From positions 1 through 47,097 of the forward strand of contig SKNY01000065.1 in assembly GCA_007123105.1 (NCBI GenBank): DNA of 47,097 bases, given 5' to 3'. This stretch comes from Salinarchaeum sp. GTDB taxonomy: Archaea; Halobacteriota; Halobacteria; Halobacteriales; SKNY01. The position numbers and the translations under genes are program-made. Within the stretch, counting starts at the first letter, position 1. The number at the start of each line of letters is the position of its first letter. Of this stretch, positions 45,783 to 47,097 are shown one piece after another. The notes under the pieces were generated by a model. That model worked only from the letters and a program-made list of their open reading frames with translations. It did no database searches and was not told the origin of the DNA.

Positions 45783-46064
45783 TTAATTATCCTCGTTCAG
45801 ATACTTCGCTTCCCATTCCTTCCGTGCCTCGATCTCCCGATGACCCCGTCGCGTAACCGTATAGTAGTTGGTCCGTCGGTCACGTTGACCCTTTTCTACG
45901 AGACCTTTCTCGACTAACGTATCGAGATTCGGGTAGAGACGTCCGTGGTGAATTTCGCGTTCGTAGTACTCCTCGAGTTCGTCCTTAATTGCAAGGCCAT
46001 GTGGCTCGTCCTTGCCGCCGATGACATAAAGGAGATCCCGCTGGAATCCCGTCAAGTCGTGCAT
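45783..46064 (-). CDS. PadR family transcriptional regulator
   Basis: LTGFQRDLLYVIGGKDEPHGLAIKDELEEYYEREIHHGRLYPNLDTLVEKGLVEKGQRDRRTNYYTVTRRGHREI. Confidence 0.93.
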   Translation of the reverse strand: MHDLTGFQRDLLYVIGGKDEPHGLAIKDELEEYYEREIHHGRLYPNLDTLVEKGLVEKGQRDRRTNYYTVTRRGHREIEARKEWEAKYLNEDN

Positions 46065-46268
46065 TGGGAATGACCATTCGATAATTCGTTTCGGTTTACA
46101 ATAAAAATGTCGGGTTGTAAGTCAAAACTTCGATCGAACCGGCCCGCACGGACGAGGACTTGACGTCCAGTGGGTTTCGAACGTGGTCCCGATTGACGAA
46201 AGTATACTCGTCAAATGAACATGTCTGTAACTGTTCGACTTGGCACTCATCAAGTATCGTGCGGAAAT

Positions 46269-46358
46269 GGTAAGCAAGCTTCGCCAAAATCGGCGAAACT
46301 CGCTTGCCGCCCTGAATTGGTCCCCGCTGACGCTTCGGCCCTCCAAAGCGAAGCGTCA
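46269..46358. repeat. Tandem strong hairpins between padR and folD
   Basis: 17-position stem GGTAAGCAAGCTTCGCC-AAAATC-GGCGAAACTCGCTTGCC (46269-46308) and perfect 10-bp stem TGACGCTTCG-GCCCTCCAAAG-CGAAGCGTCA (46328-46358). Confidence 0.75.
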
Positions 46359-46401
46359 CCTGAAGATAGCCACTGGCAGCGTAATAAAACTAACGGATGC
46401 G

Positions 46402-47097
46402 TCAGGACATGATCGTCGGCAGATCGACCTCGAGATCTCGACGTGCAGCAGCAGCCTTGACGGTATTGTACAACAGCATCGCGATGGTCATCGGGCCCAC
46501 CCCACCGGGCACTGGCGTCAGATGTGCTGCCTTTCGTTCGACACTCTCGAACTCGACGTCGCCAACGAGTTTGTATCCTTTCTCGGTGTCGGCATCGACC
46601 CGGTTGACGCCAACATCGATGACGGTGGCGCCGGCATCGACCATCGATCCATCGATCAGTTCGGGAACGCCGGCCGCGGCGATCACGATGTCAGCACCCG
46701 TCGTGTGCGCGGCGAGGTCGCGCGTTCGAGAGTGACAGACGGTGACGGTCGCGTTTCCCCCGGCAGCCTTCTGGATCAGCATGTTCGCCAAGGGCTTGCC
46801 GACGATCATCGAGCGTCCGACGATGGTCACGTCCTTCCCAGCCGGGTCGACACCAGCCTCGGCCAATAACCGGAGAACTCCGTGGGGGGTACACGGCAGG
46901 AACCGGGGATTGCCAGCAACGAGTCGCCCCACATTCTCGGGATGGAACCCGTCGACATCCTTTGTCGGATCGACCCGTTCGAGCACGGGATCAGTATCCA
47001 CGTGCTCGGGAACCGGCATCTGAACGAGAATGCCGTCGACATTCTCGTCCGCGTTTAATTCATCAATCGTGTCTAACAGCACCGCGGCAGAATCATC
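46402..47097 (-). CDS. folD: Bifunctional methylenetetrahydrofolate dehydrogenase/cyclohydrolase, 5' end beyond window
   Basis: [74 protein letters not shown]; frame stays open to 47097. Confidence 0.96.

Follow-up and report, generated by a model that had tools for sequence, protein, structure and literature searches.

Two hairpins between padR and folD in Salinarchaeum as predicted halves of a small non-coding RNA gene conserved across haloarchaea

Introduction

What are two strong tandem hairpins doing in the gap between padR and folD of a haloarchaeon? The question comes from a 47,097-nt stretch of Salinarchaeum sp. DNA (contig SKNY01000065.1), called the window here at its full length. 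A sequence-only reading of the window had picked out the hairpins and offered several identities for them: a small RNA on the minus strand, a folD 3′ UTR element or terminator, or a REP/PATE-like palindromic mobile element. That reading placed the hairpins on the convergent side of the two genes, a description that has to be corrected to a co-directional gap because folD (46402..47097, running off the window) and padR (45783..46064) both lie on the minus strand. The padR product belongs to the PadR family (PF03551) and is a homologue of hsRosR (PDB 6qfd, E 5.5e-25). Here we describe the structure, conservation, and genomic surroundings of the hairpins and weigh what kind of element they form.

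Results

Both hairpins were re-read from the sequence, and their pairing, loop sizes, and 19-nt spacing are as originally described. Hairpin 1 (46328..46358, minus strand) reads TGACGCTTCG-(11 nt)-CGAAGCGTCA from 46358 to 46328, a perfect 10-bp stem (GACGCUUCG/CGAAGCGUC) closed by the loop CUUUGGAGGGC, and its sequence is nearly invariant among homologues. It is followed by a single-stranded linker of 19 nt (46309..46327, minus strand; GCGGGGACCAAUUCAGGGC) and by hairpin 2 (46269..46308, minus strand), which is conserved in structure and variable in sequence. Read from 46308 to 46269, hairpin 2 is GGCAAGCGAGTTTCGCC-GATTTT-GGCGAAGCTTGCTTACC, with a 6-nt loop and 17 stem positions made up of 14 Watson-Crick pairs, two G-U pairs, and one C-A mismatch; the plus-strand reading of the same stem has one wobble and two mismatches, so the earlier counts hold for both strands. 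Folding of 46260-46365 gave -52.4 kcal/mol on the minus strand (z -5.50) and -45.2 kcal/mol on the plus strand (z -4.51). None of 200 shuffles folded as well in either case, which puts both energies outside the shuffled range with the minus strand the better of the two. The proposal that strand-biased imperfections point to a minus-strand RNA could be extended from one stem to the whole family. Among 119 distinct 3′ hairpins with arms aligned strand-neutrally, G-U pairs outnumber A-C pairs by 87 to 49, an excess that favors the minus strand as RNA, although the associated p-value of 0.0014 is only indicative because the 119 sequences are not independent.

From comparison with homologues and a covariance model, both hairpins are predicted to be the two halves of one minus-strand non-coding RNA gene of about 97 nt (46262..46359). 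The covariance model R1 matches the locus at 46263-46359 (G000:C95, minus strand) with 91 bits and an E value of 1.3e-27. The 5′ end of the predicted transcript would lie near 46357-46359 and its 3′ end near 46262-46266, within a pyrimidine-rich tail (46262..46268, minus strand) that follows hairpin 2, reads ATTTCC here and usually TTTT, TGTTTC, or TTTCC in homologues, and is the probable 3′ terminus. A TATA box, TTTTAT (46384..46389, minus strand), stands 32 nt before the G of GACGC in hairpin 1. Of 149 loci, all but one have a box of the NTTTAW type that starts 31 or 32 nt before hairpin 1 (GACGC), and this spacing is kept although the flanks are unrelated; a box at so fixed a distance suggests that the RNA gene has its own promoter. 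The family layout thus runs from TATA box to hairpin 1, linker AGCGGGGACCAAUUCAGGGC, hairpin 2, and pyrimidine-rich tail. Hairpin 1 takes the form GACGCUUCG, loop Y-U-(U)-UGGAGGGC, CGAAGCGUC, and hairpin 2 starts with GG, usually ends with CC, and spans 12-22 bp as folded across loci. The length of the hairpin 1 loop shifts by single nucleotides among copies (CUU, CUUU, UCU, AUCU), the base preceding GACGC is variable, and no start codon is conserved. Such changes keep no reading frame, which marks the element as non-coding. Assignment as an H/ACA guide RNA was considered and rejected, as the alignment of copies contains no conserved ACA after hairpin 2.

Homologues of the element occur throughout the order. 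With 46240-46400 as the query, blastn found them in 385 of 394 haloarchaeal genomes, in 345 of the 347 genomes of good quality, and in 91 of 95 genera, with a conserved block of about 60 nt that is 97-100% identical in most of the matches listed. The matches are not those of a dispersed multicopy sequence. There is one strong copy in the genome of the window and one syntenic copy in its only congener; elsewhere, one or two copies per genome in a conserved context are the rule, with some chromosomes carrying two or more. An exact 28-nt core pattern matched more than 100 named haloarchaeal contigs, among them contigs from Haloferax, Haloarcula, Natrialba, Halococcus, Halorussus, and Actinarchaeum halophilum. 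The covariance model, run against a sample of 394 genomes of the phylum, matched 81 haloarchaeal genomes strongly (best E at or below about 1e-15) and gave no convincing match in other Halobacteriota outside the order; ten matches there, with one-genome E values of at least 0.014, are taken as chance. Three lineages inside the order (f2, f10, and f12) also gave no convincing match, which makes the RNA less than strictly universal.

The two hairpins are conserved in different ways. Across 53 diverse copies, 48 columns are invariant (stem GACGCUUCG/CGAAGCGUC, loop UGGAGGGC, and linker GCGGGGACCAAUUCAGGGCGG), of which 28 formed the search string for the named loci; the 5′ arm and loop of hairpin 1 are among the remaining 20, which were free to vary. 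The linker part GCGGGGAC is invariant in nearly all copies and the 3′ half of the linker is semi-conserved. In hairpin 2, it is the pairing that is retained: when both sides of a pair change, 72% of the changes keep the pair, compared with 36-46% after the partner has been shifted by one or two positions. Within 16 copies of equal length, ten pairs changed on both sides and the covariation score was 0.190 against 0.095 +/- 0.012 in shuffles, none of 500 scoring as high. The slid-by-one control also scores high (0.199), but only 55% of its positions pair, and the score arises because many hairpins have a one-base asymmetry. Covariation was counted within equal-length groups because the MAFFT alignment prepared for RNAalifold did not align hairpin 2. 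Hairpin 1 is almost invariant in chromosomal copies, and compensatory changes in it appear only in copies on mobile elements, where CUUCG/CGAAG has become CUCCG/CGGAG and CUCUG/CAGAG with the loop and GCGGGGACC unchanged. Divergent copies, both Halorubrum-like and from other families, retain hairpin 1, UGGAGGGC, and GCGGGGAC(C) and shorten or lose the AAUUCAGGGCGG part of the linker, which reduces the minimal core to hairpin 1 plus GCGGGGAC(C).

Further copies were found away from the main locus. Second copies at four loci (L175, L182, L111, and L040) adjoin DUF5813 genes (PF19130); these loci are from family f5, to which Halorubrum belongs. Five diverged copies lie on plasmids or integrated elements: L173 2325-2420, L174 2287-2397 (Halorubrum lacusprofundi plasmid pHLAC01), L177 2296-2401, L178 2357-2465, and L183 2225-2384. 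These diverged copies stand about 100-130 nt from the 325-aa plasmid gene phrog_35116, in divergent orientation, and could possibly be a mobile mimic of the host RNA. A fixed link between the RNA and phrog_35116 was rejected, for the pairing occurs in five Halorubrum-type loci but ten other phrog_35116 homologues have no RNA. TRAM-domain genes were seen near three of the five diverged mobile copies. One more plasmid copy, on a Haloarcula sp. GH36 plasmid (L194 4005-4097, 59 bits), sits between genes for an FAD-dependent oxidoreductase and a hypothetical protein. A pattern scan of IMG/VR and a search of phage records gave no match to the RNA.

The surroundings of the chromosomal locus are conserved to differing degrees. 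folD stands directly before the RNA only in this genus, in the genome of the window and its congener (G001); in many other genomes it lies 0.9-5 kb upstream, or further away elsewhere. The window therefore shows an order-wide locus in locally shortened form, and the adjacency of folD is incidental to this genus. The gene usually found next upstream of the RNA encodes a protein of 48 aa that matches nothing in Pfam or NCBIfam. This protein (MRDEEEIREQYEFL...GWVLEEEHM) is conserved across haloarchaea, and in one locus (L054) its gene is 236-89 nt upstream of the RNA core. It was not found in the genus of the window and is present without the RNA in f10, and it was rejected as an obligatory partner of the RNA. 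In Actinarchaeum halophilum, a leuA-Halobacteria motif (RF03001, 51.6 bits; L085 4212-4264, plus strand) was observed about 0.9 kb from the RNA.

Discussion

Several ways of reading the hairpins tie them to a neighboring gene or to the DNA itself. One is a riboswitch or attenuator for padR, placed in its 5′ leader. It would explain why 107 of the 137 loci with enough flank have a RosR-like padR downstream on the same strand, and such a leader might look like this, with an invariant, aptamer-like part and then a terminator-like hairpin. We consider it very unlikely. A predicted TATA box of its own precedes padR by 42 nt in 98 of those 107 loci (46101-46106 in the window, minus strand, about 42 nt before the ATG), which indicates that the RNA would not be the padR leader; the distance from RNA to padR ranges from about 170 to more than 2000 nt, often with an opposite-strand amphi-Trp gene (PF20068) in between, and there is no padR beside the second copies that adjoin DUF5813 genes or sit on mobile elements. 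Slightly less credit still goes to a DNA element, with the inverted repeat serving as operator, recombination site, or replication element. GACGCTTCG/CGAAGCGTC is indeed an almost invariant inverted repeat next to the gene of a PadR-family regulator, but the loop and linker are invariant without being palindromic, the distance to the TATA box is kept, hairpin 2 preserves its pairing rather than its sequence, the hairpin 1 stem compensates in mobile copies, and two or more copies occur on some chromosomes. Two of the identities first proposed fare worst, and we regard a structure in the folD 3′ UTR, a plain terminator, or a REP/PATE-like mobile palindrome as extremely improbable. The position 3′ of folD in the window speaks for the first two; the restriction of that adjacency to one genus and the element's putative promoter speak against them, and a single copy in its own genome, mostly one or two elsewhere, and synteny conserved across the order do not fit a mobile palindrome.

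A classical base-pairing sRNA is a more serious contender, and we give it a real though lesser chance of being correct. The loop and linker would then serve as seeds for several mRNAs, perhaps with the help of Lsm (the archaeal Hfq), and hairpin 2 would be the terminator. A 5′ hairpin, a conserved single-stranded stretch, a 3′ hairpin, and a pyrimidine tail are a layout typical of many sRNAs, and many sRNAs are reportedly bound by haloarchaeal Lsm (PMC3235422). For one itsRNA of Halobacteria, 99 nt long, EF-1alpha and ribosomal proteins are the predicted targets (PMC7002113), and that itsRNA can be linked to the present RNA by description only. The search for long complementary sites argues the other way. 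In 35 genomes, the 13-nt complement of the linker turned up nowhere but at the RNA gene, apart from one extra match in one genome, and no recurrent complement was found around padR starts. Complementarity to rRNA, examined in three genomes, was limited to runs of 8-12 nt that these genomes do not share; the longest, CGCCCTGAATTG in 23S rRNA, occurs only in the Halorubrum-like G005, whose linker has lost that very sequence, and no conserved run is shared with rRNA in the sense direction. Anti-Shine-Dalgarno mimicry, for which the loop offers GGAGG, is not favored, as the flanking invariant U and G would not extend the pairing. Finding no long conserved target in these searches leans toward protein binding or short seeds without deciding between them.

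The explanation that we favor, and think probably correct, is that hairpin 1 makes up the 5′ half and hairpin 2 the 3′ half of a single trans-acting non-coding RNA of about 90-105 nt, transcribed independently and present in practically all haloarchaea. The original suggestion of a minus-strand small RNA is thereby strengthened, on the basis of the putative TATA box at fixed distance, the order-wide conservation, and the covariation. In the proposed mechanism, the TATA box would set the start of the RNA at the foot of hairpin 1, allowing transcription independent of the neighboring genes, and the RNA would act in trans. Hairpin 1, including its loop UGGAGGGC, and GCGGGGACC next to it would make up the functional core, the invariant loop and linker presumably providing a recognition or binding surface. 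Hairpin 2 appears to be held as structure only; its likeliest task, shared with the pyrimidine tail, is to form the 3′ end and protect it. A protein partner in a ribonucleoprotein, or several short pairings, would fit this arrangement better than one long antisense target. More speculatively, and with appreciable doubt on our part, the RNA could be the core of an unrecognized haloarchaeal housekeeping ribonucleoprotein, with a dedicated protein partner, a function outside the described RNA classes, conservation like that of SRP or RNase P RNA, and diverged versions on Halorubrum plasmids and integrated elements that may imitate or divert it. A core unchanged over most of 91 genera implies a basic cellular role, and since genera open to genetic work, Haloferax among them, carry the RNA, deletion and pull-down offer a direct test of its function.

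How does this RNA compare with what has been described? A permissive search of Rfam release 15 with the window and four relatives returned no family above its gathering cut-off at the RNA, where the only overlaps were chance microRNA scores below cut-off. The leuA-Halobacteria motif (RF03001) is likewise a structured RNA family of haloarchaea, but it is cis-regulatory and does not match the RNA. The literature searched nowhere spells out the core sequence. Without giving sequences, that literature does mention a few haloarchaeal RNAs that are conserved but functionless (PMC10927574, PMC7002113), and the present RNA may have been detected before as a transcript that carries an sRNA number. HVO_2908s and H3.2 are conserved sRNAs from vesicles of H. 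volcanii and Hbt. salinarum (PMC10927574) and are likewise intergenic, and STRG.49508.3 (PMC7002113) is intergenic and of similar length (99 nt); these were compared by description, which neither shows nor excludes identity. The 97-nt intergenic rancRNA_s194 of H. volcanii has a TATA box 28 nt upstream (PMC6104027) and differs in being reported as conserved only in other Haloferax species (PMC6104027). With the nearest sRNAs compared by description only, an RNA family with this order-wide core appears to be undescribed in the literature and databases searched. Haloarchaeal sRNAs have been described as extremely poorly conserved (PMC3956466). In a collection of 27 H. volcanii sRNA gene deletions, likewise of short intergenic non-coding RNA genes, 22 of the genes were restricted to H. 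volcanii and three were found in more than 10 other genomes (PMC3956466); no match to that collection, given as coordinates rather than sequences, was established, and the window RNA is found in 385 of 394 genomes. With some 40-48 nt of core unchanged over most of 91 genera, it stands as a strong exception among the sRNAs of haloarchaea.
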